From Gordonia westfalica (GTDB lineage: Bacteria; Actinomycetota; Actinomycetes; Mycobacteriales; Mycobacteriaceae), in the NCBI RefSeq assembly GCF_900105725.1, contig NZ_FNLM01000003.1, positions 1 to 17,597 on the forward strand: 17,597 nucleotides of DNA, given 5' to 3'. A model generated the notes under the pieces. It was not told where the DNA came from, made no database searches, and saw nothing but the letters and a program-made list of their open reading frames with translations. The translations under genes and the position numbers were made by a program. Shown here in pieces: positions 1 to 17,597 of the stretch; within the stretch, counting starts at the first letter, position 1, and the number at the start of each line of letters is the position of its first letter.

Positions 1-198
1 TGGTCCAGACGGACCCGCCACCATTCACCTTCAACCGCACCGTCGACTCGCCGGGGGTGAACTGCTGTTGGGATGCGGCACGGAACTGGTCCGATGCCGC
101 ATCCAACAGTTGATACACCGACGCGTGCTCAGGTTCGGTCAGGTCCCTTTGCGCCACGGCGATCACGTCGTCACGAACAGCAAGGGAGGAAGAGACAC
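1..198 (-). CDS. Head-tail adaptor, arm A copy, 3'-truncated by the window edge
   Basis: This is the mirrored copy of the adaptor N-terminal part, running off the window start. It has the same three-C run after the start as arm B (arm C has four) and one further G loss near its distal end. It holds only about the first 65 residues. Confidence 0.7.
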
Positions 199-203
199 CT
201 GGA

Positions 204-1022
204 TCAGCTACCCGAAGTCATTCCGAACTTGACGACGCCGTCCGGACGGACAACCTTGCCGCCGTACACGTGCAGGCCGCGCAGCCGGTCGGCGAAGCTG
301 TTGTCGGCGCGCAGGCCTCCACCTTATCGAGCTGCGACACGTAGGCCGCGGCCTCCGGGTGGAACGCCACGAAGCCGGGGTGGAGTTGTTGGCAGGTTGT
401 TCGACGACAGCACACGGAACCCGAGGAGGAGCCGATGGTGCCGTTGCGGAGGCCGTTGTTGTCGCCGGACACATCGAAGCTGGTGAGCTTCGAATCCGCG
501 CCGAGGAGCAGACCTTCGAAGTCGGCGTTGCACACGAGAACTCGGCCGGAGGCGGGGCGTTCTTCTTGTTCAGGGCCACACGAGCAGCCTTGACGAGGTC
601 GAATGCCTTGTTCCCGGTGTCCGGAGCGGAGCCGACAGGTTGGTGGCTCCGGCGGCGAGCATGGTGGCGATGAACTTGTCCGCGTCATCGACGAGCGCCT
701 TTCCGGCGGCGTCGGTGTACGGGGCCAGGCTGCCCGCAGACTGGGCGGCGTCGATGTCGTCGACCTTGAAGTCGAAGTTCTTCTCCTGGTCGATCAGGAG
801 GTCGACGCCGGTGTCGGTGATGGCGTCAGCCGACGTGGTGCGGTTGTTGGCCTTGTAGTCCTTGATCGCGGGTGCGACGACACCGGGGATGTGGACGGTG
901 TTGCCCTTTGTCGCGACGCCTTCGTACTGGCGGTCGAGCAGAGCGGCGAACACCTTCTCGGCGTCCCACGCCTGGGTGATGTTCGCCGCCCACAGTTCGG
1001 GAATGAAATGGGTGATGGCCAT
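204..1022 (-). CDS. Major capsid protein, arm A copy, frameshifted
   Basis: This is a second copy of the coat protein, clean from the start to the SGSAPD segment. It has private losses near 415 and 560-625, mostly in G or C runs, besides the C loss at gaggcc shared by all copies. It is six bases shorter than the corrected 825-base gene. It gives no functional information beyond arm B. Confidence 0.85.
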
Positions 1023-1031
1023 GATGGCTCC

Positions 1032-1613
1032 TTACTTTCGGATGCCCTTGAGTTCGTCGAGCTGGCCTTTGGCGTCAGCGTCGCGAATCTGGGCTGGGGA
1101 CATGTTCTTCAGGTCTGCCTGAGTGAGCTGCTGCACCTTGTTCGCCGGCGCCGCATCGGCATTGGCAACCACCGATGCCGGGGCAGCGGGCGGTACGGTC
1201 TGCTTGGGTCCGCGGAACGATTGCAGGCGGTCGAGATGGGCGCGCATCTCCTCCTCGGTGTCACCGACGAGTAGATCCGCGGGCACATCGGTGCCTTCCA
1301 CGATCTTCTTGGCGAGGTTGTCGCGTTCCCGCTGCTTCGTGTTTGCAGCGAGGGCAGCTTCGGCCTTTTCGGCCCGCTCCTGCCAGGTCTGCTCGTCGCG
1401 TTCCTTCTGCGCCAGCAGTTCGTCGTACTTGCGGGCCTTGTCGGCGTTCGCCTTCCGGCCCTTCTCGTTCTCGCGAGACAGCGACTTCCACTTGTCGCGT
1501 TCAGCGATGAGATCCTCCACACTGAGCGTGGGCTCACTGTCGGTGGTCTCAACCTCGGCGGTCGGGTCGTCTTGCTGGTCAACCGTTTCGGCGGCAGCAG
1601 TTTCCTCGGGCAT
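1032..1613 (-). CDS. Scaffolding protein, arm A copy, intact
   Basis: This copy encodes exactly the same 193 residues as the arm B scaffold. The spacing to the capsid copy is identical. Because two arms agree over the whole gene, the scaffold is the best-supported product in the window. Confidence 0.9.
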   Translation of the reverse strand: MPEETAAAETVDQQDDPTAEVETTDSEPTLSVEDLIAERDKWKSLSRENEKGRKANADKARKYDELLAQKERDEQTWQERAEKAEAALAANTKQRERDNLAKKIVEGTDVPADLLVGDTEEEMRAHLDRLQSFRGPKQTVPPAAPASVVANADAAPANKVQQLTQADLKNMSPAQIRDADAKGQLDELKGIRK

Positions 1614-1688
1614 GTTGCTCCTGACGTTTCGTCGGATGGTGCGCCGTTGCGGCGCTCAAAATCCCCGCACTGGTGTGCGAGGGAAGCT

Positions 1689-2452
1689 CTAGGCGGCTTT
1701 GAAGTTCTGGTCCGCCATGTGAGGACGGGGCCGATCTCTCCGTGGTCGCGGACCAGGAGAAGTTTCTGGTAGTCGTGGGCGGCGCGATTGTCGGCGCCGG
1801 TAAGTTCCCGCACCTGCTTGTGTGTGTCCTCGAGTAGATCCGGATCGATCACCCGGTCGCCGTTCCAATCCGACTTCACGGGAGCGACCGAACAGTCACA
1901 TCCAGGGTGTATGGGCGACAGGTCACCAACGTGATAGCGCTGAGTAGAGGCGATGACACAGAGAGCACAGTTCTTGGGGCCGTTCAGCACCCGCCGGTAC
2001 GCCTTGACTCCAGCAGCCTGGAGGGACGCGTCGGCCTGCCGTACCTTCGCCATCTGCATGTCCGTCGCCACCAGATGCATCAACCGTGTGGCCCCGGCCG
2101 CGACTGCCGCATCCAGCGGTGCGGATTCGGAAAGGTCGGCCCATACCTGCTCAAAAGGCCTCCGGTACAACAGTTCGGGGTCCACCCCACGGCCACGGGT
2201 AACCCCGTCTCGATCCACTGGAAGCGGAACTCCACCTGATACAGCACGGGCAATATAACTGGACGTCAGATTCGCGACTTGAAGTTGTCCCGCCGTCACC
2301 ATCGGCACCAGTCGGGCAATCAGCCTCTCTGCCTGAGCATCACGGAACGCGGGAAGCCCACCCCAGATTGCGTTGGCGTAGTTCATCACCCGCGCGCGGA
2401 CGTCCGCAACGGCCTGTTGGTAGCCGATCAGAAGGCGATCAGACTCGGGCAT
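1689..2452 (-). CDS. MuF-like minor capsid protein, arm A copy, one-base loss near the end
   Basis: It is identical to arm B through LTWR. It lacks one G of a ggg run near 1713, which shifts the last residues. The shift opens a misleading 447-residue reading frame that runs on into an out-of-frame scaffold; that fusion is not real. Confidence 0.87.
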
Positions 2453-3133
2453 TCGCGTTGTCCACGAAACTCATCAGCTGCTCGTCAGCCAGATCTAAGG
2501 CATCCTGCTCGATCTGCTCCGGCGAGTAGCCAAGAATGTTGCGGGCAATCGACTTCCATGACTCCCCCGCACCCTTCGCCTTCACCGCGGCGTCATACTT
2601 CTCCGACAGCGACACGTGATCCGGCGGTTCCCACGACAAGGAGATCGTCTCCTCGGTCTCAAACCCCTCGATACGCAAAGCTTTCGAGATGATCGCCGAC
2701 AAGCCCGTATCAACCACGTCAAGTCGGTCACGCGCCTTCAGGATCAACGCTTCCTTCATCGCAGCAGAGCCGGTAGCCGACTGATTCTGAGAACCGGAAG
2801 CAGCGCGGGGAACGGGTGGCCGACATCTCCGACAGCTCCGCAAGTCATCCTTCACCCCTCCAGAAAGCCTAATTCGTGGCATCGACTCCCCACCGATACC
2901 AGCAGGATGTCCACAACGCACCACCCGCCGAACACCGACGCCCATCGATTCGTGCCTTCGCTCCTTCTGTCGACCTCCCGTGCGCGCTGACGCCACCCGC
3001 ATCCTGATGTCACACGACGCTCGAGGATTCCGCGTTGATGCGGTGATGTGTCGAGATGTTCGAACTCACCCCCGGCGGTGCCACCCCCCCGCCCCCGCCG
3101 TGATGACGAACTCTGTCGCCGCATCCCCCGTGC
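2439..3133 (-). CDS. Portal protein, arm A copy, 5'-truncated by the fold
   Basis: The C-terminal part is identical to arm B from SQNQSATG to the end. Upstream, this arm is longer and retains recognisable portal sequence that arm B lacks, including GFLEGVKDDLRS and SEMSAT when one or two bases are restored. It is still noisy, with frame changes, between 2800 and 3130. Confidence 0.75.
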
Positions 3134-3737
3134 TCACGTGGGATGCGCACAGAGTTCGTCATCACCGGCGAGGGCCGCCGGTGGTGGTGTTGAACAACCG
3201 CTCGAATGGGTGAGTTCGAACCCATCTCGACACCATCACCCGCATCAACGCGTCCTCGAGCGTCGTGTGACATCAGCGATGCAGGCGTGGCTCAGCGCGA
3301 GGAGGTCTGCACAGGAGCCGCATGATCGTCGGGCACTCGGACCCTCGGTTCGGTTTACACCGCGCTGCATGCGTTGCGCGGGTTCTCAGAATCAGTCGGC
3401 TACCGGCTCTGCTGCGATGAAGGAAGCGTTGATCCTGAAGGCGCGTGACCGACTTGACGTGGTTGATACGGGCTTGTCGGCGATCATCTCGAAAGCTTTG
3501 CGTATCGAGGGGTTTGAGACCGAGGAGACGATCTCCTTGTCGTGGGAACCGCCGGATCACGTGTCGCTGTCGGAGAAGTATGACGCCGCGGTGAAGGCGA
3601 AGGGTGCGGGGGAGTCATGGAAGTCGATTGCCCGCAACATTCTTGGCTACTCGCCGGAGCAGATCGAGCAGGATGCCTTAGATCTGGCTGACGAGCAGCT
3701 GATGAGTTTCGTGGACAACGCGAATGCCCGAGTCTGA
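3134..3737 (+). CDS. Portal protein, C-terminal part (SPP1 gp6-like), 5'-truncated by the fold
   Basis: The portal forms the dodecameric ring at one capsid vertex, through which DNA is packaged and ejected and to which the tail connector attaches. Near the fold, short stretches in shifting frames resemble the family core: VVVLNNR, then GEFEP, then ERRVTSAMQAW. From about 3380 the frame is open and clean, from GSQNQSATGSAAMKEAL through a charged helical tail to the stop. This fits the usual portal C-terminus (GT.QSAEG-like motif, then long helices). The N-terminal half is missing because the palindrome cuts the gene. About 90 bases seem lost between 3270 and 3380 relative to arm A. The stop overlaps the MuF start by 14 bases. 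The family call is from recognition of motifs, not from a search. Confidence 0.82.
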
Positions 3738-4488
3738 TCGCCTTCTGATCGGCTACCAACAGGCCGTTGCGGACGTCCGCGCGCGGGTGATGAACTACGC
3801 CAACGCAATCTGGGGTGGGCTTCCCGCGTTCCGTGATGCTCAGGCAGAGAGGCTGATTGCCCGACTGGTGCCGATGGTGACGGCGGGACAACTTCAAGTC
3901 GCGAATCTGACGTCCAGTTATATTGCCCGTGCTGTATCAGGTGGAGTTCCGCTTCCAGTGGATCGAGACGGGGTTACCCGTGGCCGTGGGGTGGACCCCG
4001 AACTGTTGTACCGGAGGCCTTTTGAGCAGGTATGGGCCGACCTTTCCGAATCCGCACCGCTGGATGCGGCAGTCGCGGCCGGGGCCACACGGTTGATGCA
4101 TCTGGTGGCGACGGACATGCAGATGGCGAAGGTACGGCAGGCCGACGCGTCCCTCCAGGCTGCTGGAGTCAAGGCGTACCGGCGGGTGCTGAACGGCCCC
4201 AAGAACTGTGCTCTCTGTGTCATCGCCTCTACTCAGCGCTATCACGTTGGTGACCTGTCGCCCATACACCCTGGATGTGACTGTTCGGTCGCTCCCGTGA
4301 AGTCGGATTGGAACGGCGACCGGGTGATCGATCCGGATCTACTCGAGGACACACACAAGCAGGTGCGGGAACTTACCGGCGCCGACAATCGCGCCGCCCA
4401 CGACTACCAGAAACTTCTCCTGGTCCGCGACCACGGAGAGATCGGCCCCGTCCTCACATGGCGGGACCAGAACTTCAAAGCCGCCTAG
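3724..4488 (+). CDS. MuF-like minor capsid protein
   Basis: MuF-type minor head proteins are a few copies per virion, linked to the portal, and often inside the head. This copy is intact at 254 residues. The N-terminal half is helical. The MuF signature lies at about residues 153-190: RR, NGPKNCALC (Cys162, Cys165), QRYHVGDLSPIHPGCDC (His182, Cys185, Cys187). The Cys/His set is typical of the family and may bind metal. No toxin or other C-terminal fusion is present, as the protein ends about 65 residues after the motif. No good Shine-Dalgarno precedes the ATG. The 14-base overlap with the portal end suggests translational coupling. Position between portal and scaffold is the standard location. 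Confidence 0.92.
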   Translation: MPESDRLLIGYQQAVADVRARVMNYANAIWGGLPAFRDAQAERLIARLVPMVTAGQLQVANLTSSYIARAVSGGVPLPVDRDGVTRGRGVDPELLYRRPFEQVWADLSESAPLDAAVAAGATRLMHLVATDMQMAKVRQADASLQAAGVKAYRRVLNGPKNCALCVIASTQRYHVGDLSPIHPGCDCSVAPVKSDWNGDRVIDPDLLEDTHKQVRELTGADNRAAHDYQKLLLVRDHGEIGPVLTWRDQNFKAA

Positions 4489-4521
4489 AGCTTCCCTCGC
4501 ACACCAGTGCGGGGATTTTGA

Positions 4522-4536
4522 GCGCCGCAACGGCGC
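4522..4536 (+). other. Short GC hairpin upstream of the scaffold gene
   Basis: A perfect 6-base stem (gcgccg / cggcgc) with a caa loop lies between the MuF stop and the scaffold start, in a 75-base gap. It is not followed by a T run, so it is a weak terminator candidate. It could be an mRNA stability or processing element. It is present in the mirrored positions of arms A and C. Confidence 0.35.
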
Positions 4537-4563
4537 ACCATCCGACGAAACGTCAGGAGCAAC

Positions 4564-5145
4564 ATGCCCGAGGAAACTGCTGCCGCCGAAACGGTTGACC
4601 AGCAAGACGACCCGACCGCCGAGGTTGAGACCACCGACAGTGAGCCCACGCTCAGTGTGGAGGATCTCATCGCTGAACGCGACAAGTGGAAGTCGCTGTC
4701 TCGCGAGAACGAGAAGGGCCGGAAGGCGAACGCCGACAAGGCCCGCAAGTACGACGAACTGCTGGCGCAGAAGGAACGCGACGAGCAGACCTGGCAGGAG
4801 CGGGCCGAAAAGGCCGAAGCTGCCCTCGCTGCAAACACGAAGCAGCGGGAACGCGACAACCTCGCCAAGAAGATCGTGGAAGGCACCGATGTGCCCGCGG
4901 ATCTACTCGTCGGTGACACCGAGGAGGAGATGCGCGCCCATCTCGACCGCCTGCAATCGTTCCGCGGACCCAAGCAGACCGTACCGCCCGCTGCCCCGGC
5001 ATCGGTGGTTGCCAATGCCGATGCGGCGCCGGCGAACAAGGTGCAGCAGCTCACTCAGGCAGACCTGAAGAACATGTCCCCAGCCCAGATTCGCGACGCT
5101 GACGCCAAAGGCCAGCTCGACGAACTCAAGGGCATCCGAAAGTAA
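4564..5145 (+). CDS. Capsid scaffolding protein
   Basis: Scaffolding protein co-assembles with coat protein inside the procapsid and leaves or is degraded during maturation. This copy is intact at 193 residues. It has the expected layout: an acidic disordered N-terminus (residues 1-30, rich in Glu, Asp, Thr), a long charged helical or coiled-coil region (about 32-105, with AERDKWKSL, KARKYDELL and ERAEKAEAAL), a segment with DVPADLLVG, a Pro/Ala-rich linker, and a C-terminal helix ending GIRK. A Shine-Dalgarno (gtcagga) precedes the ATG. It sits immediately before the capsid gene with a 9-base gap. No protease motif is seen. The family is assigned from composition, length and position, since scaffold sequences diverge widely. 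Confidence 0.9.
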   Translation: MPEETAAAETVDQQDDPTAEVETTDSEPTLSVEDLIAERDKWKSLSRENEKGRKANADKARKYDELLAQKERDEQTWQERAEKAEAALAANTKQRERDNLAKKIVEGTDVPADLLVGDTEEEMRAHLDRLQSFRGPKQTVPPAAPASVVANADAAPANKVQQLTQADLKNMSPAQIRDADAKGQLDELKGIRK

Positions 5146-5154
5146 GGAGCCATC

Positions 5155-5977
5155 ATGGCCATCACCCATTTCATTCCCGAACTGTGGGCGGCGAACATCA
5201 CCCAGGCGTGGGACGCCGAGAAGGTGTTCGCCGCTCTGCTCGACCGCCAGTACGAAGGCGTCGCGACAAAGGGCAACACCGTCCACATCCCCGGTGTCGT
5301 CGCACCCGCGATCAAGGACTACAAGGCCAACAACCGCACCACGTCGGCTGACGCCATCACCGACACCGGCGTCGACCTCCTGATCGACCAGGAGAAGAAC
5401 TTCGACTTCAAGGTCGACGACATCGACGCCGCCCAGTCTGCGGGCAGCCTGGCCCCGTACACCGACGCCGCCGGAAAGGCGCTCGTCGATGACGCGGACA
5501 AGTTCATCGCCACCATGCTCGCCGCCGGAGCCACCAACCTGTCGGGCTCCGCTCCGGACACCGGGAACAAGGCATTCGACCTCGTCAAGGCTGCTCGTGT
5601 GGCCCTGAACAAGAAGAACGCCCCCGCCTCCGGCCGAGTTCTCGTGTGCAACGCCGACTTCGAAGGTCTGCTCCTCGGCGCGGATTCGAAGCTCACCAGC
5701 TTCGATGTGTCCGGCGACAACAACGGCCTCCGCAACGGCACCATCGGCTCCCTCCTCGGGTTCCGTGTGCTGTCGTCGAACAACCTGCCCAACAACTCCA
5801 CCCCGGCTTCGTGGCGTTCCACCCGGAGGCCGCGGCCTACGTGTCGCAGCTCGATAAGGTGGAGGCCTGCGCGCCGACAACAGCTTCGCCGACCGGCTGC
5901 GCGGCCTGCACGTGTACGGCGGCAAGGTTGTCCGTCCGGACGGCGTCGTCAAGTTCGGAATGACTTCGGGTAGCTGA
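5155..5977 (+). CDS. Major capsid (coat) protein, with two single-base losses
   Basis: This is the main shell protein, probably with the HK97 fold and of the P22-coat-like branch seen in many actinophages. The ATG follows a strong Shine-Dalgarno (aaggag, 5 bases before the ATG). The frame is clean from MAITHFIPELWAANI to about residue 216 (SSNNLPNN). It then breaks. Restoring one C in the ccacccc run near 5802 and one C at gaggcc near 5870 joins it to a C-terminus that reads GFVAFHPEAAAYVSQLDK, then ADNSFADRLRGLHVYGGK, and ends GMTSGS. The corrected length is 274 residues. The second loss is shared by all three copies; the first is repaired by arm C. I regard both as sequencing errors. A long antisense open frame over this gene is a codon-bias shadow. 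Confidence 0.92.
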
Positions 5978-5982
5978 TCCAG

Positions 5983-6549
5983 GTGTCTCTTCCTCCCTTG
6001 CTGTTCGTGACGACGTGATCGCCGTGGCGCAAAGGGACCTGACCGAACCTGAGCACGCGTCGGTGTATCAACTGTTGGATGCGGCATCGGACCAGTTCCG
6101 TGCCGCATCCCAACAGCAGTTCACCCCCGGCGAGTCGACGGTGCGGTTGAAGGTGAATGGTGGGCGGGTCCGTCTGGACCAGTTGCCAGTCACAGGGGTG
6201 ACGTCTGTGACCGATGACGCGGGAAACTCTGTGGACTACACCCGAAATGGATGTGGTTGACCGTCGGATGTGATTCTTCACGGTTCCTCACTGTCACATA
6301 CTCGCATGGCGGAGAAGTGCCGCCGCGTGTGAAGAATGCGGTCGCCGAAATGGTGATCCGCGCTCTTGTGACGCCGGAGGAAGTGATGGCCGGAGCCCGG
6401 TCGCTGACCGACTCCGCAGGTCCGATCTCGCAGACCACTGCATGGTCGGTCCGAGCGCCGAACTCGGGTTTGCAGATGTCCGAGTCGGACCTGAAGTTGG
6501 CGGCATCGTTTCGCTGGCAGGAGGGCAAGTCATTGTCCAGGCACCGTAG
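5983..6549 (+). CDS. Head-tail adaptor (connector ring 1), frameshifted
   Basis: This family (HK97 gp6 / SPP1 gp15-like) binds below the portal and forms the first connector ring. The GTG start is chosen because arm C has one more C after it, giving a continuous MSLPPLAVRDDVIAVAQ opening, 5 bases after the capsid stop. Later motifs are typical: an N-terminal helical part, LDQLPVTGVTSVTDDAGN, the beta segment MWLTV then FLTVTYSHGG, VPPRVKNAVAEMVIRALV, and LQMSESDLKLA. Three single-base losses (after 5990, near 6250 and near 6520) are each supplied by arm C. The corrected length is about 189 residues, ending QGGQVIVQAP. The end is less certain than the rest, because the arms differ around 6500-6550. 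Confidence 0.78.
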
Positions 6550-6893
6550 GGGAATACCCGCCGTCTTCGACGTAGAACACCTGCCGTTCAACGGAACCGG
6601 CGCCGACGACTACGGCAACGATGTCGAGTCCTGGGGCGAACCGGACCCGCGGAAGTTCGTGACGTTCATCGACCCACAAAGCGATGAACTAGATCTCCCG
6701 GGCACATCCGGGACTCCGTTGACGTGGAATCATCGTCCTCCCCGATTTCGGTCCGGTGTCACCACGTGACAGGGAAGTCATCGACGGAACTGTCTATGAC
6801 GTTGTCGGCCAACCCAAGGACTACACCAGGATTCCGTCTCTCACGGGCGGCGGTTGCTACGTCGTAACTCTGAAGGTGGTGAAGTCGTCGTGA
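6533..6893 (+). CDS. Head closure / stopper-like connector protein, frameshifted
   Basis: This small protein follows the adaptor and probably forms the second connector ring that seals the DNA-filled head (SPP1 gp16 / HK97 gp7 role). The proposed TTG start has a strong Shine-Dalgarno (agggagg, read complete in arm C) and overlaps the adaptor end. The product begins MSRHRRGIPAVFDVEHLPF, continues with DDYGNDVESWGEPDP, and after two restored G residues (near 6708 and 6727) reads DSVDVGIIVLPDFGPVSPRD, DGTVYDVVGQP and ends TLKVVKSS. The corrected length is 120 residues. The V.VLPD / DR..IDG..Y.V.G pattern matches head-tail connector proteins of actinophages by recognition. The stop overlaps the next start (GTGA). 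Confidence 0.72.
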
Positions 6894-7147
6894 GAATCGA
6901 GTGGAATCAGAAGGCGTTCAAGGACGTCCGATACGGTCGGACGTCCGACATCATCAGCGAGCTCGAGGGTCATGCTGAGCGCATTGCTGACGATGCGAGC
7001 GCTATGGGCGAGGGCACGTACGCGGTGGGTTCACGGGCAGGCATGGCACGTCCCCAGGGCCGTTGGCGTGCCTCTGTCGTCACCGCCGACTACAAGGCGC
7101 AACGCGACAATGCCCGCAACAACACGATCCTCAGGGCTCTCGGATAA
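6890..7147 (+). CDS. Neck protein, HK97 gp10-like
   Basis: This 85-residue protein belongs to the small gp10-like neck or minor head-tail joining family. The GTG start is fixed by a 4-base GTGA overlap with the preceding stop. The sequence has the family layout: MRIEWNQKAF, a helix with ELEGHAERIADDAS, then a Tyr/Val strand (TYAVGSRAG), the conserved ARPQGRWRASVVTA, and the terminal RDNARNNTILRALG. It is intact in arm B but loses several bases in arm C. Its position between the head closure and the tail terminator is the usual one. A 14-base palindrome lies inside the gene near its 5' end. Confidence 0.85.
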   Translation: MRIEWNQKAFKDVRYGRTSDIISELEGHAERIADDASAMGEGTYAVGSRAGMARPQGRWRASVVTADYKAQRDNARNNTILRALG

Positions 7148-7150
7148 CTG

Positions 7151-7532
7151 ATGTCGACACCCACGCTGGCGGCGCTCTCCATCTGCCGAGCGGCGCTGCC
7201 TGGAGTGAAGTTCTCCACGACCGTCTCAGAAGACCCTGCCCGATTCGGGAGGGTTTCTCGTATCGGCGGCCCACGGGATCGCTCACTGGATCGCGCTCGC
7301 ATCCTTGTCGAACTGTACGGCTCAACCCCAAGGGCAGCCCGGACACGGCGTGGACTGAGCAATCGATCGGAACCATCGCGGACGGATTCCAGGCTGCATC
7401 CTCGGGCGGCCCATGGGCAGGCCTGTGGGTAACCGACTGGGTCATGAACAGCCTGGCCGACTATCCCAACCCGGACTATGAAAAGCATTCCGGTTCCAGT
7501 TCACCGGGACACTCTTCGTGCTCCGAACCTAA
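7151..7532 (+). CDS. Tail terminator protein, two single-base losses
   Basis: The tail terminator (lambda gpU-like) caps the tail tube and joins it to the neck. It starts 3 bases after the previous stop. The frame is open through MSTPTLAALSICRAALPGV, FGRVSRIGG and RARILVELYGSTP. It then shifts. Adding one C at accccaag (near 7325) gives KGSPDTAWTEQSIGTIADG, and adding one C at attccgg (near 7490, present in arm C) gives SRFQFTGTLFVLRT before the TAA. The corrected length is 127 residues, and the terminal FTGTLFVLR beta strand is typical of this family. The first loss is shared by arms B and C. Assignment rests on position and on the characteristic R..L.VELYG and F.FTGTLFVL segments. Confidence 0.82.
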
Positions 7533-7550
7533 AGTCTCCTAACTGAATAA

Positions 7551-7586
7551 CCCTTTCGCGGCTCCTGGTCACCTCGCCTGAAAGGG
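7551..7586 (+). promoter_or_regulatory. Hairpin masking the major tail protein ribosome binding site
   Basis: Bases 7551-7557 (ccctttc) pair perfectly with 7580-7586 (gaaaggg), with a loop of 22 bases. The right arm contains the aaagggg Shine-Dalgarno of the major tail protein. The loop includes the 15-base element found inverted after the gene. The same structure is present in arm C. It could lower initiation until a partner opens it, or simply act as a weak terminator or processing site; the sequence does not decide. Confidence 0.45.
7557..7571 (+). repeat. 15-base repeat, left copy, upstream of the major tail gene
   Basis: The sequence cgcggctcctggtca is the exact reverse complement of 8263-8277, on the other side of the major tail gene. 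A shorter direct match (gctcctggt) lies at 8299-8307. Both long copies recur in arm C (14389-14403 and 13686-13700). Confidence 0.75.
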
Positions 7587-7594
7587 GCAAAACA

Positions 7595-8187
7595 ATGGCA
7601 GTCGAACACTCTTACGTGGCGCAGTCGCTCGACGGCGGCGTCTACTGGCGGGCACCTCTGGGTACCACGCTTCCCACCGCTCCGGTCGAGTCGCCGGAAG
7701 ACCTGAACGCCGCGTTCGAGGACCACGGAACCGCGGCGGTCGACGGCCTGTCGGTCGGCATCACCCGCACCTCGAACACCGTCAAGGACTTCGACGGTGG
7801 CGACTACGTCGATGTGCAGACCGAGTACGGCACCAGCTTCAAGATCAAGCTGCTCGACGTCGACCTGCCGTCGGTGAAGCGGACCGTCGCAGGTGACGAC
7901 AACGTCACCCTCATCCCCGCTGCCGGCGGCAAGGGCAGCGCTACCACGTCCGCCACAACTCGTCGCAGCTTCCGCTGTCGGCCCACGTGTTCGCCACGAA
8001 GTGCGGCAAGAAGTTCAAGACGTACGTCGTGGAGAAGGGCCGCGTCTCGGAGATCGCGGAGTGGAAGGACGAGTCGCAGGACGCGTCGGGCGTGGAGTTG
8101 ACGATCCGAGCGTTCCGCAACTCCAACGGCGACTACGTCGACGAGTTCGGCGACGTGGACGGCATCGCCGCCACTTCGGGTAGCTGA
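7595..8187 (+). CDS. Major tail (tube) protein, one single-base loss
   Basis: This protein polymerises into the tail tube around the tape measure. The ATG has a strong Shine-Dalgarno (aaagggg). The product opens MAVEHSYVAQSLDGGVYWR, has VESPEDLNAAFEDHG, GLSVGITRTSNTVKDFDGG, the strand FKIKLLDVDLPSVKRT and VTLIPAAGGKG. Here one G is missing near 7935; arm C carries it. The frame then continues QRYHVRHNSSQLPLSAHVFA, KKFKTYVVEKGRVSEIAEW, GVELTIRAFRNSNGDYVDE and ends TSGS. The corrected length is 197 residues. Beta-rich composition, place between tail terminator and chaperones, and the following terminator all agree with a tube protein. Confidence 0.88.
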
Positions 8188-9145: not shown

Positions 9146-9614
9146 ATATCACCGGACTTCACTAGTTCGCCGCCGAACTGTCCCGCAATCTGGCCTGCCA
9201 TGACCGCGTTCTGGTCGAGGCTGATCAGCCAGGTTGGTCCCGTTACGTAGTAGTGGCGATCGCCAGTGATGTCTCCCGTGATGTCAGAGTGCTTTACCGA
9301 TGCAGCGATTCCCTTCGAGGCGAGGTCTTCTGAGAACCACACACTCAGTCGAGCTTCGGCCGTTGGGGTTAGTGGGCACGATCCGTGCTCAGCCTTCGGC
9401 CCCGAGGTTGCGTCAGTAACCAGGCATGGGAAGCCGGCTGAAGTTAGTCCGGCCGCGAGTTGACTCACTGACGTGTACGCACCTGCGACTGCAGGGCAGG
9501 TGCGGAGGCCGACGATGTCGCAGGAGCCTTACCGGCCTCGGGGCTTCGGTCGCTGCACCCAGAGGCGGCGAGGGCGAATGCGATTACTGGGATGGCAATG
9601 CATGCACGTTTCAT
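9142..9614 (-). CDS. Phage-encoded lipoprotein (moron candidate), reversed in the late operon
   Basis: The product has a lipoprotein signal peptide: MKRACIAI, a short hydrophobic stretch, and AASGC with the lipidation Cys at residue 20. An Ala/Pro/Ser linker follows (about 25-45), then a small domain with VSQLAAGLTSAGFPCLV, GSCPLTPTAEARLSVWFSE, GDRHYYVTGPTWLISLDQNA and the end IAGQFGGELVKSGDI. It would be anchored outside the host membrane. Arm B lacks one C in the linker (gccctgca; arm C has gcccctgca). The corrected length is 157 residues. The small-domain pattern (Trp-Leu-Ile, then QFGGEL near the end) resembles lipoproteins seen in other actinophages and their hosts. Opposite orientation and own upstream region suggest independent expression. 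A role in superinfection exclusion is inference only. Confidence 0.85.
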
Positions 9615-9729
9615 CTCGACAGGATAAGCCGTCAGTGCGACGACCCGAGATAGAATGGAGCGACCCCGGAGGTGCTACCAACACCAGCCGGGCCTAACCA
9701 CTCGCTTGAAGCACCAAGGAGGGGCTGCC
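9615..9729. promoter_or_regulatory. Divergent intergenic region between lipoprotein and endonuclease genes
   Basis: The two genes point away from each other here, so promoters are expected. On the plus strand tagaat (9651-9656) is a fair -10 match without a clear -35. On the minus strand tatcct (complement of 9621-9626) lies about 8 bases before the lipoprotein ATG, which itself lacks a Shine-Dalgarno, so a leaderless transcript is possible. A good Shine-Dalgarno (aaggagggg, 9716-9724) precedes the endonuclease GTG. Confidence 0.4.
9664..9693. other. Hairpin or operator-like inverted repeat in the divergent region
   Basis: The arms are ccccgg-a-ggtg and cacc-ag-ccgggg around a 7-base loop (ctaccaa). 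Arm B has lost one G in the right arm and arm C shows the full version. It lies between the candidate -10 and the endonuclease start, so it would be in the 5' leader of that transcript, or it could be a protein-binding site. Confidence 0.4.
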
Positions 9730-10434
9730 GTGAAGGCTACCCGAACCCGACGTCCATGTCCGACATGTGGATCACCCATCGACCGAGGTCCCGGACAGCA
9801 TGCGTACTGCTCCGACGAATGTCGCCCCATCTGCGAGCACCCCACATGCGACCGCCCTACGCGGGCATGCAGACGGTGTGCGACTCGCACCGGGTTCAGC
9901 TTGATCGCCACGGCGAACTCCGGCCGGACACGTGGTCGAAGGAATGGGTGTGCGTCGTTTGCGGGGCAGGTGTCCCGAAGGGGTCGGGGCGCCGTAAGCA
10001 CTGCTCGAGGGGCTGTCAGCAAACCGACTCTCGATACAACGGGCGTCGCCCAACGACGGCGAAATGTCGGCTATGCGGCAGGACTTCTCCCTACAGCGGC
10101 GCACCGGGGCGAGGCTTCAGCGCACCGACACTCAGTGGTGCCGCACCTGCGGTAGAGAATCCCCCGAAGCGCGCCGATATCTGAAGTACGGAATCACCCC
10201 GGAGGAGTACGCGGCCGCGATGAATCGGGGCTGCGACATCTGCGGCGAGCGCGTGGGGGCGCTACATATCGACCATGACCACAGCTGCTGCCCTCCACGG
10301 AGTAAGCAGTGGCGAACCTGCGGGCAGTGCGTCCGCGGATTCCTCTGCGGATCGTGCAACCGCGGATTGGCCTACTGAAGGATGACCCGAACGTGCTGCG
10401 AAGCGCGATCGAGTACCTCGGTCGAAAGGCCTAG
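9730..10434 (+). CDS. Recombination endonuclease VII-like HNH protein with N-terminal zinc motifs, three single-base losses
   Basis: The GTG start has a strong Shine-Dalgarno. After restoring one G at each of three places (near 9861, 10077 and 10371; arm C has all three) the product is 235 residues. The N-terminal two thirds hold repeated zinc-ribbon-like Cys sets: C10/C13 with C27/C31, C75/C78 with C92/C96, and C113/C116 with C138/C141. The C-terminal part (about 150-235) is the endonuclease VII domain: [17 protein letters not shown] (169/172), [10 protein letters not shown] with the catalytic His-Asp-His core, [17 protein letters not shown] (Cys207/Cys210) and [13 protein letters not shown]. 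Endonuclease VII cuts branched DNA and mismatches. Small relatives of this family in actinophages may be resolvases or homing-type nucleases. Its place inside a tail operon favours a mobile or accessory gene. Confidence 0.86.
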
Positions 10435-10458
10435 AAACAGCGCATACATACGGACTCA

Positions 10459-10497
10459 ACGAACACCCCTAAGGCCATGAGCCTCTGGGGTGTTCGT
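10459..10497 (+). terminator. Strong bidirectional hairpin terminator before the tape measure gene
   Basis: A perfect 11-base stem (acgaacacccc / ggggtgttcgt) closes a 17-base loop that itself holds aggc / gcct. It is followed by catttct. It starts 25 bases after the endonuclease stop and ends 33 bases before the tape measure GTG. The mirrored copy in arm C is identical in sequence. Confidence 0.8.
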
Positions 10498-10529
10498 CAT
10501 TTCTGGCGGCAAGCAAAGGGGGTGGCAGC

Positions 10530-10977
10530 GTGGCCACGGAGCTAGGTGTTGCCTACATTTCCATCGTTCCAGAGACGAGCCGTATCGCTCCTGGCATCCG
10601 TAACGCGCTCAATGGTGCTGAACGCGGCGCTGGTGACACTGGGCGTCGCATGGGTCACACGATGTCCACCGCCCTCGGCACGGCGCTGGGGATTGGCGTG
10701 TCGAAGGCGGCGGCGCAGCATCGAAGGTGCTGCAGGATGCCCTGTCGGCAGGCTACAACCGGATCACCACCCTGGAGAAGGCGGACATCCAGTTCCGCAA
10801 TATGGGCTGTCGGCCGGTGACACGAAGCGTCAGCTTGCCGATCTGAATGACATCGTCACCGGCACCTCGACTTCGCTGGCTGATGCAGCGGCGGCAGCAG
10901 CGATGCTGGCGGTGCTGGCGTGGCGGCGGGCGACGACATGAACAACGCTGTGAAGCGTTGGTGAAACGAGGCGCCAG
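10530..10977 (+). CDS. Tape measure protein, N-terminal fragment cut by the second fold
   Basis: The tape measure sets tail length and runs inside the tail tube; full proteins are usually hundreds to thousands of residues. The GTG follows aaaggggg. Only about 140 residues are present: MATELGVAYISIVPETSRIA, GIRNALNGAERGAGDTGRRM, then (corrected with arm C) VSKAAGAASKVLQDALSAGY, RITTLEKADIQFRNMGLSAG, KRQLADLNDIVTGTSTSLAD, an Ala-rich segment, and GVAAGDDMNNAVKALV. The motif series K..I.F..LGLS, L..IVTGTS.ALADA and D...A.KALV is typical of the phage tape measure N-terminal domain. Arm B loses bases near 10715, 10805 and 10905-10955. The gene stops because the sequence folds back, not because of a stop codon. 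Confidence 0.85.
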
Positions 10978-10989
10978 AGCGCAGAGATG
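10965..10989. other. 25-base apex between arms B and C
   Basis: The apex is flanked by ggtga and tcacc, which begin the long mirrored arms. It has no mirror partner. Read on the minus strand, it continues the tape measure frame plausibly (Ile-Ser-Ala-Leu, then Gly-Ala-Ser-Phe) if one or two bases are restored. That suggests it belongs to arm C, and that the copying strand switched about 25 bases away from where arm B ended. Confidence 0.6.
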
Positions 10990-11425
10990 TCACCAACGCC
11001 TTCACAGCGTTGTTCATGTCGTCGCCGCCGCCACGCCAGCACCGCCCAGCATCGCTGCTGCCGCGCTGCATCAGCCAGCGAAGTCGAGGTGCCGGTGACG
11101 ATGTCATTCAGATCGGCAAGCTGACGCTTCGTGTCACCGGCCGACAGCCCCATATTGCGGAACTGGATGTCCGCCTTCTCCAGGGTGGTGATCCGGTTGT
11201 AGCCTGCCGACAGGGCATCCTGCAGCACCTTCGATGCTGCGCCCGCCGCCTTCGACACGCCAATCCCCAGCGCCGTGCGAGGGCGGTGGACATCGTGTGA
11301 CCCATGCGACGCCCAGTGTCACCAGCGCCGCGTTCAGCACCATTGAGCGCGTTACGGATGCCAGGAGCGATACGGCTCGTCTCTGGAACGATGGAAATGT
11401 AGGCAACACCTAGCTCCGTGGCCAC
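10978..11425 (-). CDS. Tape measure protein, N-terminal fragment, arm C copy
   Basis: This is the mirrored copy. It reads AAGAASKVLQDALSAGYNRI and QFRNMGLSAGDTKRQLADLN correctly where arm B is broken, but has its own losses near 11280 and 11040. The 25-base apex may extend this copy beyond the arm B end. Confidence 0.8.
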
Positions 11426-11457
11426 GCTGCCACCCCCTTTGCTTGCCGCCAGAAATG

Positions 11458-11496
11458 ACGAACACCCCAGAGGCTCATGGCCTTAGGGGTGTTCGT
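11458..11496. terminator. Tape measure upstream terminator, arm C copy
   Basis: Same 11-base stem and loop as in arm B, reversed. No base differs within the stem. Confidence 0.75.
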
Positions 11497-11520
11497 TGAG
11501 TCCGTATGTATGCGCTGTTT

Positions 11521-12224
11521 CTAGGCCTTTCGACCGAGGTACTCGATCGCGCTTCGCAGCACGTTCGGGTCATCCTTCAGTAGGCCCAATCCGCGGTTGC
11601 ACGATCCGCAGAGGAATCCGCGGACGCACTGCCCGCAGGTTCGCCACTGCTTACTCCGTGGAGGGCAGCAGCTGTGGTCATGGTCGATATGTAGCGCCCC
11701 ACGCGCTCGCCGCAGATGTCGCAGCCCCGATTCATCGCGGCCGCGTACTCCTCCGGGGTGATTCCGTACTTCAGATATCGGCGCGCTTCGGGGATTCTCT
11801 ACCGCAGGTGCGGCACCACTGAGTGTCGGTGCGCTGAAGCCTCGCCCCGGTGCGCCGCTGTAGGGAGAAGTCCTGCCCGCATAGCCGACATTTCGCCGTC
11901 GTTGGGCGACGCCCGTTGTATCGAGAGTCGGTTTGCTGACAGCCCTCGAGCAGTGCTTACGGCGCCCCGACCCCTTCGGGACACCTGCCCCGCAAACGAC
12001 GCACACCCATTCCTTCGACCACGTGTCCGGCCGGAGTTCGCCGTGGCGATCAAGCTGAACCCGGTGCGAGTCGCACACCGTCTGCATGCCCCGCGTAGGC
12101 GGTCGCATGTGGGGTGCTCGCAGATGGGGCGACATTCGTCGGAGCAGTACGCATGCTGTCCGGGACCTCGGTCGATGGGTGATCCACATGTCGGACATGG
12201 ACGTCGGGTTCGGGTAGCCTTCAC
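11521..12224 (-). CDS. Endonuclease VII-like protein, arm C copy, frameshifted
   Basis: It has the complete G runs missing in arm B (cgcggggcatg, tgcgggcag and attgggcc). It carries private losses instead, including one C at ccgcctacg near 12112, one G in the gaggggctg region near 11945 and others near 11700 and 11805. Together with arm B it defines the 235-residue product. A 320-residue open frame extending past the real start is a shift artefact. Confidence 0.8.
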
Positions 12225-12341
12225 GGCAGCCCCTCCTTGGTGCTTCAAGCGAGTGGGTTAGGCCCCGGCTGGTGTTGGTAGCACCTCCGGGGTCGCTCCA
12301 TTCTATCTCGGGTCGTCGCACTGACGGCTTATCCTGTCGAG

Positions 12342-12813
12342 ATGAAACGTGCATGCATTGCCATCCCAGTAATCGCATTCGCCCTCGCCGCCTCTGGGTG
12401 CAGCGACCGAAGCCCGAGGCCGGTAAGGCTCCTGCGACATCGTCGGCCTCCGCACCTGCCCCTGCAGTCGCAGGTGCGTACACGTCAGTGAGTCAACTCG
12501 CGGCCGGACTAACTTCAGCCGGCTTCCCATGCCTGGTTACTGACGCAACCTCGGGCCGAAGGCTGAGCACGGATCGTGCCCACTAACCCCAACGGCCGAA
12601 GCTCGACTGAGTGTGTGGTTCTCAGAAGACCTCGCCTCGAAGGGAATCGCTGCATCGGTAAAGCACTCTGACATCACGGGAGACATCACTGGCGATCGCC
12701 ACTACTACGTAACGGGACCAACCTGGCTGATCAGCCTCGACCAGAACGCGGTCATGGCAGGCCAGATTGCGGGACAGTTCGGCGGCGAACTAGTGAAGTC
12801 CGGTGATATCTAG
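12342..12813 (+). CDS. Lipoprotein, arm C copy, frameshifted
   Basis: It carries the correct linker (gcccctgca) but lost one C at agcccgagg near 12412 and one G at cctcgggcc near 12555. The lipobox Cys and the C-terminal 66 residues are identical to arm B. Two arms together give an uninterrupted 157-residue lipoprotein. Confidence 0.8.
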
Positions 12814-13617
12814 CGCATCGACGCCGCGACCGCCCGAGCCTTCTCAGCCTCGCTGGGACCTTCGCCCTCGGTAGCTTCGGCAGCGTCATCCCGAGGCGGC
12901 CCATACCGGGCCGGGAAGTAGATCTCAGGCACTTCGTTAAACGTGGTCAACGCCTGCATGTATCGGAGGTCGGAAACGATCGTCGCCACCTCCGACAAGA
13001 GCATCACAGACGGATCAGACCACAGCCAAGTGTCAGGATTCCATGCCCGGAACAGCTCCATTGCGTGGTCTGTGCGAGCCCTGCGGACAATAGCCCGCAG
13101 GTCAGTCCATGAAAACCAGGGCTTCCCGAGATCCCGCAACCTGAGGCCGCGGGAAATCAGGTCGTACTCGATGGCCTCCCCGTGCTCGTCTAGGAGTCGG
13201 CGGAGGCCGAAGATTCCCCCACTGTGATGTCAGGATCTTCGAGCTGCTTCTTGATCCACTGGATGGTGCCCTCAGGGATCTTCGTCATCAGGAGCTTGTA
13301 CTCGGCAGCCGACACGTACGGCTTGAGCCACCGGAGGGTGACTTCCTTCTCCTCGAAACCCTTCAGGGTTTCCTCTGCGTCGACCGGCGCGGCAGCGTCT
13401 TCTCCGCGCTGTTGAGGCTGTTCGCCCATTCGGCGATCTTCACATCCGCTTCCCCGAACGGGGTGATCCAGTCCTGGTACTTCTTGATCTCGCGGGGTCC
13501 ATCCACTTGCGCGGCGGCATCGACACCAGTACCGGATCGCGCCCGGGATGGGGACGGCGAACTTCAACAGGTGATCGTCGGACGAGGGGCTACTGCGTAG
13601 CCTTCGGGAACAGACAT
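12810..13617 (-). CDS. Tail assembly chaperone GT-like product, arm C copy
   Basis: The -1 extension is uninterrupted here from the G run to the stop, which makes this the reference copy for the long product. The G-like part still has a few losses near 13499 and 13560-13600. Confidence 0.75.
13190..13617 (-). CDS. Tail assembly chaperone G-like product, arm C copy
   Basis: It preserves the ITPFGEADVKIAEWANSL region and the five-G slippery run with the 0-frame end GESSASADS. Shared losses with arm B are at gatccggta and gagaagac. Confidence 0.75.
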
Positions 13618-13657
13618 GGTTTGACCAGGAACCTTTCAACATTGGGATAGAACTTCA

Positions 13658-13731
13658 ACCAGGAGCAGCCCGGCCTGGCAAAAGACGCGGCTCCTGGTCA
13701 GGGACAACATGACACCCCTTCGCCAGGCCGA
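13658..13731 (-). promoter_or_regulatory. Chaperone leader with interleaved inverted repeats, arm C copy
   Basis: Both stems of the arm B leader are present with all paired bases intact; only unpaired C and G runs are one base shorter. It includes the 15-base repeat at 13686-13700. Confidence 0.45.
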
Positions 13732-13738
13732 GATTGTG

Positions 13739-13768
13739 TGCCCGGGAGGCTAGATACCTCCCCGGGCA
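13739..13768 (-). terminator. Major tail gene terminator, arm C copy
   Basis: Mirrored hairpin. The G missing from the arm B left arm is present here, and one G is missing from the other arm. Confidence 0.6.
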
Positions 13769-13775
13769 AGACGGG

Positions 13776-14366
13776 TCAGCTACCCGAAGTGGCGGCGATG
13801 CCGTCCACGTCGCCGAACTCGTCGACGTAGTCGCCGTTGGAGTTGCGGAACGCTCGGATCGTCAACTCCACGCCCGACGCGTCCTGCGACTCGTCCTTCC
13901 ACTCCGCGATCTCCGAGACGCGCCCTTCTCCACGACGTACGTCTTGAACTTCTTGCCGCACTTCGTGGCGAACACGTGGGCCGACAGCGGAAGCTGCGAC
14001 GAGTTGTGGCGGACGTGGTAGCGCTGCCCCTTGCCGCCGGCAGCGGGATGAGGGTGACGTTGTCGTCACCTGCGACGGTCCGCTTCACCGACGGCAGGTC
14101 GACGTCGAGCAGCTTGATCTTGAAGCTGGTGCCGTACTCGGTCTGCACATCGACGTAGTCGCCACCGTCGAAGTCCTTGACGGTGTTCGAGGTGCGGGTG
14201 ATGCCGACCGACAGGCCGTCGACCGCCGCGGTTCCGTGGTCCTCGAACGCGGCGTTCAGGTCTTCCGGCGACTCGACCGGAGCGGTGGGAAGCGTGGTAC
14301 CCAGAGGTGCCCGCAGTAGACGCCGCCGTCGAGCGACTGCGCCACGTAAGAGTGTTCGACTGCCAT
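13776..14366 (-). CDS. Major tail protein, arm C copy, frameshifted
   Basis: It supplies the aaggggcag run missing in arm B, but lost one C in catcccgctg near 14046 and further bases near 13925 and 14311. The two arms together give the 197-residue protein. Confidence 0.83.
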
Positions 14367-14374
14367 TGTTTTGC

Positions 14375-14409
14375 CCCTTTCAGCGAGGTGACCAGGAGCC
14401 GCGAAAGGG
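14375..14409 (-). promoter_or_regulatory. Major tail protein ribosome-site hairpin, arm C copy
   Basis: The 7-base stem is intact. The loop is one base shorter than in arm B (cgctg instead of cgcctg), which allows gcg/cgc pairing to extend the stem with a small bulge. Confidence 0.4.
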
Positions 14410-14427
14410 TTATTCAGTTAGGAGACT

Positions 14428-14803
14428 TTAGGTTCGGAGCACGAAGAGTGTCCCGGTGAACTGGAACCGGGAATGCTTTTCATAGTCCGGGTTGGGATAG
14501 TCGGCCAGGCTGTTCATGACCCAGTCGGTTACCACAGGCCTGCCCATGGGCCGCCGAGGATGCAGCCTGGAATCCGTCCGCGATGGTTCCGATCGATTGC
14601 TCAGTCCACGCCGTGTCCGGGCTGCCTTGGGGTTGAGCCGTACAGTTCGACAAGGATGCGAGCGCGATCCAGTGAGCGATCCGTGGGCCGCCGATACGAG
14701 AAACCCTCCCGAATCGGCAGGGTCTTCTGAGACGTCGTGGAGAACTTCACTCCAGCAGCGCCGCTCGGCAGATGGAGAGCGCCGCCAGCGTGGGTGTCGA
14801 CAT
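14428..14803 (-). CDS. Tail terminator, arm C copy, frameshifted
   Basis: It carries the attcccgg run that repairs the arm B C-terminus. It has more private losses (near 14540, 14630, 14690 and 14735) and is eight bases shorter than the corrected gene. Confidence 0.75.
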
Positions 14804-14806
14804 CAG

Positions 14807-15059
14807 TTATCCGAGAGCCCTGAGGATCGTGTTGTTGCGGCATTGTCGCGTTGCGCCTTGTAGTCGGCGGTGACGACAGAGGCACGCCAACGGCCCTGGG
14901 GACGTGCATGCCTGCCGTGAACCCACCGCGTACGTGCCTCGCCATAGCGCTCGCATCGTCAGCAATGCGCTCAGCATGACCCTCGAGCTCGCTGATGATG
15001 TCGGACGTCCGACCGTATCGGACGTCCTTGAACGCCTTCTGATTCCACTCGATTCTCAC
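14807..15059 (-). CDS. Neck protein (gp10-like), arm C copy, frameshifted
   Basis: Five bases shorter than the intact arm B gene. The losses fall in G runs of the region encoding MGEGTYAVGSRAGMARPQGR. The start overlap with the head closure stop is preserved. Confidence 0.75.
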
Positions 15060-15410
15060 GACGACTTCACCACCTTCAGAGTTACGACGTAGCAACGCCG
15101 CCGTGAGAGACGAATCTGGTGTAGTCCTTGGGTTGGCCGACAACGTCATAGACAGTTCCGTCGATGACTTCCCTGTCACGTGGTGACACCGGACCGAAAT
15201 CGGGAGGACGATGATTCCCACGTCAACGGAGTCCCGGATGTGCCCCGGAGATCTAGTTCATCGCTTTGTGGGTCGATGAACGTCACGAACTTCCGCGGGT
15301 CCGGTTCGCCCAGGACTCGACATCGTTGCCGTAGTCGTCGGCGCCGGTTCCGTTGAACGGCAGGTGTTCTACGTCGAAGACGGCGGGTATTCCCCTACGT
15401 GCCTGGACAA
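15056..15410 (-). CDS. Head closure-like protein, arm C copy, frameshifted
   Basis: It provides the gtgggaatc sequence missing in arm B and the complete agggagg Shine-Dalgarno. It lost bases near 15250, 15310 and 15399. Confidence 0.65.
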
Positions 15411-15958
15411 TGACTTGCCCTCCCTGCCAGCGAAACGATGCGCCAACTTCAGGTCCGACTCGGACATCTGCAAACCCGAGTTCGGCGCTCGAACCGACCA
15501 TGCAGTGGTCTGCGAGATCGGACCTGCGGAGTCGGTCAGCGACCGGGCTCCGGCCATCACTTCCTCCGGCGTCACAAGAGCGCGGATCACCATTTCGGCG
15601 ACCGCATTCTTCACACGCGGCGGCACTTCTCCGCATGCGAGTATGTGACAGTGAGGAACCGTGAAGAATCACATCCGACGGTCAACCACATCCCATTTCG
15701 GTGTAGTCCACAGAGTTTCCCGCGTCATCGGTCACAGACGTCACCCCTGTGACTGGCAACTGGTCCAGACGGACCCGCCACCATTCACCTTCAACCGCAC
15801 CGTCGACTCGCCGGGGTGAACTGCTGTTGGGATGCGGCACGGAACTGGTCCGATGCCGCATCCAACAGTTGATACACCGACGCGTGCTCAGGTTCGGTCA
15901 GGTCCCTTTGCGCCACGGCGATCACGTCGTCACGAACAGCAAGGGGAGGAAGAGACAC
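15395..15958 (-). CDS. Head-tail adaptor, arm C copy, frameshifted
   Basis: It carries the four-C run after the GTG that connects the start to the body, and the aaatggga run that repairs the centre. It has private losses near 15625, 15697 and 15814. Confidence 0.72.
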
Positions 15959-15963
15959 CTGGA

Positions 15964-16777
15964 TCAGCTACCCGAAGTCATTCCGAACTTGACGACGCCG
16001 TCCGGACGGACAACCTTGCCGCCGTACACGTGCAGGCGCGCAGCCGGTCGGCGAAGCTGTTGTCGGCGCGCAGGCCTCCACCTTATCGAGCTGCGACACG
16101 TAGGCCGCGGCCTCCGGTGGAACGCCACGAAGCCGGGGGTGAGTTGTTGGGCAGGTTGTTCGACGACAGCACACGGAACCCGAGGAGGGAGCCGATGGTG
16201 CCGTTGCGGAGGCCGTTGTTGTCGCCGGACACATCGAAGCTGGTGAGCTTCGAATCCGCGCCGAGGAGCAGACCTTCGAAGTCGGCGTTGCACACGAGAA
16301 CTCGGCCGGAGGCGGGGGCGTTCTTCTTGTTCAGGGCCACACGAGCAGCCTTGACGAGGTCGAATGCCTTGTTCCCGGTGTCCGGAGCGGAGCCCGACAG
16401 GTTGGTGGCTCCGGCGGCGAGCATGGTGGCGATGAACTTGTCCGCGTCATCGACGAGCGCCTTTCCGGCGGCGTCGGTGTACGGGGCCAGGCTGCCCGCA
16501 GACTGGGCGGCGTCGATGTCGTCGACCTTGAAGTCGAAGTTCTTCTCCTGGTCGATCAGGAGGTCGACGCCGGTGTCGGTGATGGCGTCAGCCGACGTGT
16601 GCGGTTGTTGGCCTTGTAGTCCTTGATCGCGGGTGCGACGACACGGGATGTGACGGTGTTGCCTTTGTCGCGACGCCTTCGTACTGGCGGTCGAGCAGAG
16701 CGGCGAACACCTTCTCGGCGTCCCACGCCTGGGTGATGTTCGCCGCCACAGTTCGGGAATGAAATGGTGATGGCCAT
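15964..16777 (-). CDS. Major capsid protein, arm C copy, frameshifted
   Basis: Eleven bases shorter than the corrected gene. It is clean over the central third (LAAGATNLSGSAPDTGNKAF to about NNLPNN) and supplies the C run that arm B lost there (ccccgg). Losses cluster near 16600-16760. Confidence 0.83.
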
Positions 16778-16786
16778 GATGGCTCC

Positions 16787-17365
16787 TTACTTTCGGATGC
16801 CTTGAGTTCGTCGAGCTGGCCTTTGGCGTCAGCGTCGCGAATCTGGGCTGGGGACATGTTCTTCAGGTCTGCCTGAGTGAGCTGCTGCACCTTGTTCGCC
16901 GGCGCCGCATCGGCATTGGCAACCACCGATGCCGGGGCAGCGGGCGGTACGGTCTGCTTGGGTCCGCGGAACGATTGCAGGCGGTCGAGATGGGCGCGCA
17001 TCTCCTCCTCGGTGTCACCGACGAGTAGATCCGCGGGCATCGGTGCCTTCCACGATCTTCTTGGCGAGGTTGTCGCGTTCCCGCTGCTTCGTGTTTGCAG
17101 CGAGGGCAGCTTCGGCCTTTTCGGCCCGCTCCTGCCAGGTCTGCTCGTCGCGTTCCTTCTGCGCCAGCAGTTCGTCGTACTTGCGGGCCTTGTCGGCGTT
17201 CGCCTTCCGGCCCTTCTCGTTCTCGCGAGACAGCGACTTCCACTTGTCGCGTTCAGCGATGAGATCCTCCACACTGAGCGTGGGCTCACTGTCGGTGGTC
17301 TCAACCTCGGCGGTCGGGTCGTCTTGCTGGTCAACCGTTTCGGCGGCAGCAGTTTCCTCGGGCAT
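16787..17365 (-). CDS. Scaffolding protein, arm C copy, frameshifted
   Basis: It lacks two bases near 17039 and one near 16800 relative to the two identical intact copies, so it is a damaged copy of the same gene. Confidence 0.83.
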
Positions 17366-17440
17366 GTTGCTCCTGACGTTTCGTCGGATGGTGCGCCGTT
17401 GCGGCGCTCAAAATCCCCGCACTGGTGTGCGAGGGAAGCT

Positions 17441-17597
17441 CTAGGCGGCTTTGAAGTTCTGGTCCGCATGTGAGGACGGGGCCGATCTCTCCGTGGTCGC
17501 GGACCAGGAGAAGTTTCTGGTAGTCGTGGGCGGCGCGATTGTCGGCGCCGGTAAGTTCCCGCACCTGCTTGTGTGTGTCCTCGAGTAGATCCGGATC
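17441..17597 (-). CDS. MuF-like protein, C-terminal fragment, arm C copy
   Basis: Only the last 50 or so residues are inside the window, which ends within the gene. Two bases are missing near 17465 relative to arm B. Confidence 0.7.
   Translation of the reverse strand, partial: IRIYSRTHTSRCGNLPAPTIAPPTTTRNFSWSATTERSAPSSHADQNFKAA

Follow-up and report, generated by a model that had tools for sequence, protein, structure and literature searches.

The window analysed here, 17,597 nucleotides long, is the entire contig C3 (NZ_FNLM01000003.1) of the Gordonia westfalica assembly GCF_900105725.1, which comprises 38 contigs and 6,405,003 bases, and it consists of a single phage head-and-tail segment laid out backward, forward and backward again. 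When the window is aligned with itself by BLAST, positions 4330-17597 match their own reverse complement at 98.57% identity, with 21 mismatches and 167 gap openings; a second inverted pair, 1-2795 with 3381-6181, is 99.8% identical with no mismatches and six gap openings, and 1-1846 recurs in direct orientation at 15761-17597 with 98.9% identity. The length and identity of these matches exclude chance as their source. Mapping on C27, an unfolded phage contig of the same assembly, separates three arms: arm A (1-3127, reverse strand; C27 30571 down to 27379), arm B (3138-10965, forward strand; C27 27377 to 35385) and arm C (10992-17597, reverse strand; C27 35385 down to 28717), the last within a match that starts at 10967 (C27 35410 down to 28717). 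The folds therefore lie at about 3,133 and at 10,966-10,991. The first (3128-3138, near C27 27,377) contains about ten unplaced bases, too few for a 45-base adapter, and its flanks (2964-3317) are rich in errors, with an arm-to-arm identity of 81%; our fold aligner failed on these flanks, scoring 580, and the position comes from BLAST and inspection by eye. The second (10966-10991) consists of about 25 phage bases (C27 35386-35410) present in a single copy, and shows no foreign sequence. A sequence-only reading of the window had described the three alternating orientations, the direct repeat and turning points at 3133 and 10977, and all of these are borne out. It had also placed both turns inside genes, which is likely: fold 1 would fall within the portal gene, judging by synteny with Gordonia phage Lucky10, and fold 2 within the tape measure gene, whose start on the forward strand, cut by the fold, matches phrog_10780 at 10530-10820 (E 3.7e-17).

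Arm B carries the recognizable gene families on the forward strand, and searches with its proteins (tblastn) located their mirror copies on the reverse strand of the other arms. A head maturation protease, which we take to be of the MuF type, occupies 3724-4488 (phrog_1522, E 1.4e-76) and is mirrored at 1697-2452, with a 129-base end piece at 17469-17597. The scaffolding protein at 4564-5145 (phrog_2592, E 7.6e-26) returns at 1035-1613 and 16801-17365. The major capsid protein at 5155-5973 (PF25209; phrog_267, E 9.1e-58), whose family match extends to about residue 215 and whose first 200 residues served as query, returns at 428-1022 and 16185-16766. The head-tail adaptor Ad1 at 6015-6769 matches phrog_2377 in two open reading frames in different frames, and its N-terminal part, used as query, is mirrored at 17-166 and 15685-15925. 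The neck protein at 6854-7147 (phrog_387; mirror at 14839-15095) and the major tail, or tail-tube, protein at 7595-8101 (phrog_117; mirror of its first 120 residues at 14008-14313) are each present twice. Scaffold, capsid and adaptor thus occur three times and the protease twice plus its end piece, in agreement with the earlier claim that head and tail genes recur two or three times as mirrored arms. The capsid reading frame is broken in both arms A and C, and that of the scaffold is broken in arm C and intact in arm A. The reverse-strand stretch 11521-12483, a mirror of about 10064-10440 on the forward strand, contains an endonuclease VII-like match (phrog_2914, residues 260-319 of the mirrored open reading frame); this match directly precedes the tape measure gene, a place where the Lucky10 annotation shows no endonuclease.

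The window is one of many copies of the same phage in this assembly. Two contigs, C34 (4.5 Mb) and C36 (1.1 Mb), are chromosome-sized, and 35 of the 38 contigs, 683,863 bases in total, derive from the phage; they are phage throughout, apart from brief unaligned stretches where folds occur and about 2 kb of chromosome with which C33 ends. All fit a circular layout of about 58,172 bases, made up of C27 1-41774, about 812 bases from C7, and C24 1-15586. In C27, which has no fold, each of the six head and tail proteins tested occurs a single time, whereas tblastn across the 36 small contigs finds them 17 to 21 times each, pieces included. Twenty-six of the 35 phage contigs, the window among them, are folded: nine once, twelve twice and five three times. 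Nine are unfolded, and seven of these (C27, C7, C24, C25, C15, C18 and C31) span the whole circular layout. The tip of C36 (1-2785 against 2850 onward) is also folded phage sequence, so the anomaly reaches even into the 1.1 Mb chromosomal contig. The plasmid contig C30, of which 20 kb was compared, is a 100.0% match to G. westfalica pKB1 (101,016 bases); it is an unclipped circle, since its ends repeat each other over 7.96 kb, and a search of this contig for inverted self-matches found none. Among the best 80 of 594 RpoB loci, that of G. paraffinivorans comes closest to the RpoB of this assembly, at 96% identity; the host is accordingly a Gordonia and probably G. westfalica. One small contig, C37 (3.6 kb), differs from C27 by 244 gap openings and 11 mismatches (93% identity), and resembles a nearly raw long read that remained as a contig.

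The phage is a prophage integrated in a tRNA-Gly gene. The right end of C34 enters it and the left end of C36 leaves it, and the two share a core of 52-53 bases within the tRNA-Gly (ccc) gene (9962-10035 of excerpt L046 from C36; 14110-14161 of excerpt L072 from C34), beside which lies a 407-residue phage integrase (PF00589; excerpt L072, 14282-15505). Six contig ends (both ends of C16 and of C22, and one each of C32 and C37) fall within 27 bases at C27 24437-24463, which is a probable cos terminus; they lie about 3.7 kb before the protease gene, and the end of the Lucky10 genome lies about 3.2 kb before its own. Molecules cut at cos would mean that the lytic cycle was running, and therefore that phage copy number was high, so the prophage was probably induced and abundant when the culture was sequenced. 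The last 64 bases of C28 (excerpt L017, 10655-10718) map to the opposite strand at C27 24438-24500, a jump of about 1 kb, beside this cos-like terminus. The prophage also seems to carry an insertion sequence of its host, because one in C24 (excerpt L039, 6423-7560), next to a glycine-rich open reading frame and encoding a 368-residue DDE_3 transposase, has four more full-length copies and one of 1,060 bases, all listed at 100% identity, in C34 and C36; we take it to be IS630-like. Elsewhere in C34, positions 3092297-3102019 hold four pieces in one orientation with 66-74% identity to the phage, which may be a second and distant prophage. A literature search on prophages of G. westfalica gave only listings that look unrelated.

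Two relatives of the phage, Lucky10 and one in the genome G055 of the same genus, run in one direction. Lucky10 (Luckytenvirus, KU963256) shares the order terminase, portal, protease, scaffold, capsid, adaptor, connector, tail tube, chaperones and tape measure, with 75.8% DNA identity over 37% of the query, but it has a single annotated set of head genes, all in one direction, and its genome is 43 kb rather than about 58 kb. Of 58 further genomes in this genus, G055 alone has a strong relative, in two pieces on one contig and in one orientation; 12 give weak matches only (E 8.9e-6 or higher) and 45 none. A scan of viral contigs found six partial relatives, and none of the 70 pattern matches from a genome-collection scan with the scaffold protein was confirmed as a relative.

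We are highly confident that the window is an artefact contig, built from fold-back phage reads that the assembler left as extra contigs and partly chained. This conclusion rests on four observations: folds are spread evenly over the phage, whereas a hairpin or recombination site of biological origin would have a set position; differences between copies look like read errors; some mirror copies are frame-broken; and the same assembly contains the phage unfolded. Against C27, the window's arms differ by one mismatch and 152 gap openings, of which 126 fall in homopolymers (three matches of at least 500 columns), and homopolymer runs hold 43% of C27 bases; over all phage contigs, matches of at least 500 columns show 2076 gap openings and 63 mismatches. 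Real duplicates diverge mainly by substitution. A genuine rearrangement, that is, a phage or prophage with inverted and duplicated head genes, has only the contig itself in its favour. It has against it C27 and 25 other phage contigs folded elsewhere, the indel-dominated differences and broken frames, the even spread of the folds, and the single orientation of both G055 and Lucky10; we rejected a real duplication on these grounds and give it practically no chance. The template-complement, or fold-back, chimera that the sequence-only reading favoured is supported by the same unfolded C27 and the same 25 contigs, as is its warning that anyone counting genes or claiming duplication here would be misled.

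To survey the folds, we listed 49 by hand from BLAST segments, 48 in the 26 folded phage contigs and one at the C36 tip, leaving out the strand change in the last 64 bases of C28. Their positions fit a uniform spread over the phage layout (Kuiper p 0.48), their directions divide into 24 one way and 25 the other, and folds of one kind come no closer together than about 150 bases. A fixed hairpin terminus was therefore rejected. Linear phages with covalently closed ends, of the protelomerase type, turn at a single fixed point; here the turns occur over the whole layout. All 49 listed folds join segments less than 10 kb apart, and 46 skip at most 200 bases. Nineteen are well resolved, at an aligner score of at least 940 of 1000, a cut-off chosen after the scores were seen; in these, fold 2 of the window among them, the arms meet directly, with 1-166 phage bases between arm ends. 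Bases read once at a fold are compatible with two successive strands with clipped ends, and we did not use them to choose between a hairpin and consecutive reading. Seven of the nine single-fold contigs have arms equal to within 10%, a result matched in none of 200,000 simulations with random turns. Two of these symmetric contigs, C16 and C22, have both their ends at the cos-like terminus, as expected of a single fragment read along both strands. Among the 17 multi-fold contigs, 11 are incompatible with one insert having two fixed ends and six, including the window, are compatible.

These data bear on how strands came to be folded. Fold-back reads are known for amplified DNA (PMC6218980, PMC1855051), for nanopore ligation libraries (PMC13141652) and for strand-displacement reactions, where a study with the T7 replisome identified inverted-repeat reads as physical hairpins (PMC9484634). 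One mechanism named by the sequence-only reading was strand switching during multiple displacement amplification (MDA), in which the 3' end of a displaced strand anneals again close by and is extended back along that strand, sometimes repeatedly in one molecule. This would account for the zigzags of the 11 multi-fold contigs that a single fixed insert does not explain and for the phage bases between arm ends at the well-resolved folds, and junction homology does exceed that of simulated random folds (mean 1.47 versus 0.65 nt, P 0.0012). However, homology of at least 2 nt occurs at just 7 of the 19 well-resolved folds (47 of 300 in simulation), compared with 93.5% for inverted MDA chimeras under 10 kb in the data drawn from PMC1855051. 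The short skips at 46 folds and the symmetry of most single-fold contigs also argue against it, and a culture, we assume, would need no amplification. Strand switching of this kind may have occurred, but on balance we consider it unlikely.

The other mechanism put forward was a missed SMRTbell hairpin adapter, which the polymerase rounds without the software recognizing it. One insert with two fixed ends would account for the window's three arms and for five further multi-fold contigs, and the symmetric single-fold contigs suit this mechanism too. But the 19 well-resolved folds leave no space for 45 foreign bases, and the rule of two fixed ends is broken by the 11 incompatible multi-fold contigs, unless reads were chained. 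Within 200 bases of the 49 folds, the adapter, in the letters we take it to have, matched at none above its shuffled controls (best score 32, shuffled up to 34); in calibration, 95% of simulated adapters with 20% error scored at least 55.9. With no adapter-like sequence near any fold we rejected this explanation, which we regard as improbable, and our paper search turned up no literature on missed adapters. One nanopore oligonucleotide reached a score of 24 in the window, where the highest of 20 shuffles gave 23, but the match lies at 2250-2265 and its mirror 3911-3926, away from either fold.

A third possibility is that hairpin or palindromic phage molecules formed in the cell, when strands switched at random positions during replication of the induced prophage. 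This would explain why folds occur in phage sequence alone, within the part of the assembly examined, and it would suit the slight excess of junction homology and the continuation of folded phage sequence in C33 and C36 into the chromosome past the right attachment site. Against it stand the even spread of the folds, the nine unfolded phage contigs, seven of which cover the whole layout, and the fact that library chemistry by itself gives fold-back reads: nanopore ligation libraries of DNA standards contained 0.18-7.33% inverted-repeat reads in the part of PMC13141652 that we cite. We hold such an origin in the cell to be very improbable.

Instead, the artefact contigs probably arose as follows. 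The prophage of about 58 kb in the tRNA-Gly gene would have been induced in part of the Gordonia culture, so that phage DNA exceeded chromosomal DNA. During library preparation or long-read sequencing, the reading of some phage fragments would then have run along one strand and returned directly along the other, yielding fold-back reads with their turns at random positions. The assembler, unable to place these reads, would have kept them as surplus contigs and merged some where an arm common to two of them gave an ordinary overlap. The window would combine one read with its turn at 3,133 and a second with its turn at 10,977, both of which contain arm B. We think that most fold-back reads had one turn and were chained by the assembler, because seven of nine single-fold contigs are symmetric, C16 and C22 run from cos to cos, and 11 of 17 multi-fold contigs do not fit one insert.

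Several observations weigh against an artefact of fold-back reads. The arm-to-arm BLAST of the window counts 21 mismatches. Thirty of the 49 folds, including fold 1 of the window, score under the 940 cut-off, and two of the nine single-fold contigs have unequal arms, with ratios of 0.62 and 0.80. Folds occur only in phage sequence, in a survey covering 36 whole contigs and both terminal 20 kb stretches of C34 and C36; high phage coverage, which we infer from the likely induction, would explain this. Finally, C33, with two folds, extends into about 2 kb of chromosome beyond the right attachment site, a pattern that read chaining would explain and that a structure made in the cell would also give.

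Comparable reads have been described elsewhere, in the portions of the two reports considered here. The palindromic reads of the Pacasus paper (PMC6218980) likewise contain one or more inverted copies of a segment per long read, including multi-turn palindromes after amplification, and likewise upset assembly; those reads come from whole-genome amplification, and the folds found here lie in one phage. The nanopore inverted-repeat chimeras (PMC13141652) also hold two opposite-strand copies per read and stem from library preparation or sequencing, whereas the folds here persist as assembled contigs with up to three turns, and the platform may differ.

The finding is ordinary in kind and serves as a warning. 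One phage of about 58 kb accounts for about 684 kb of the 6.4 Mb assembly, so that some 0.63 Mb (10%) is redundant, which is not evident from the listed completeness of 100 and contamination of 0.3. Gene counts, genome size and claims of phage gene duplication drawn from such an assembly would be wrong, and self-alignment of the small contigs would reveal the fold-back redundancy.

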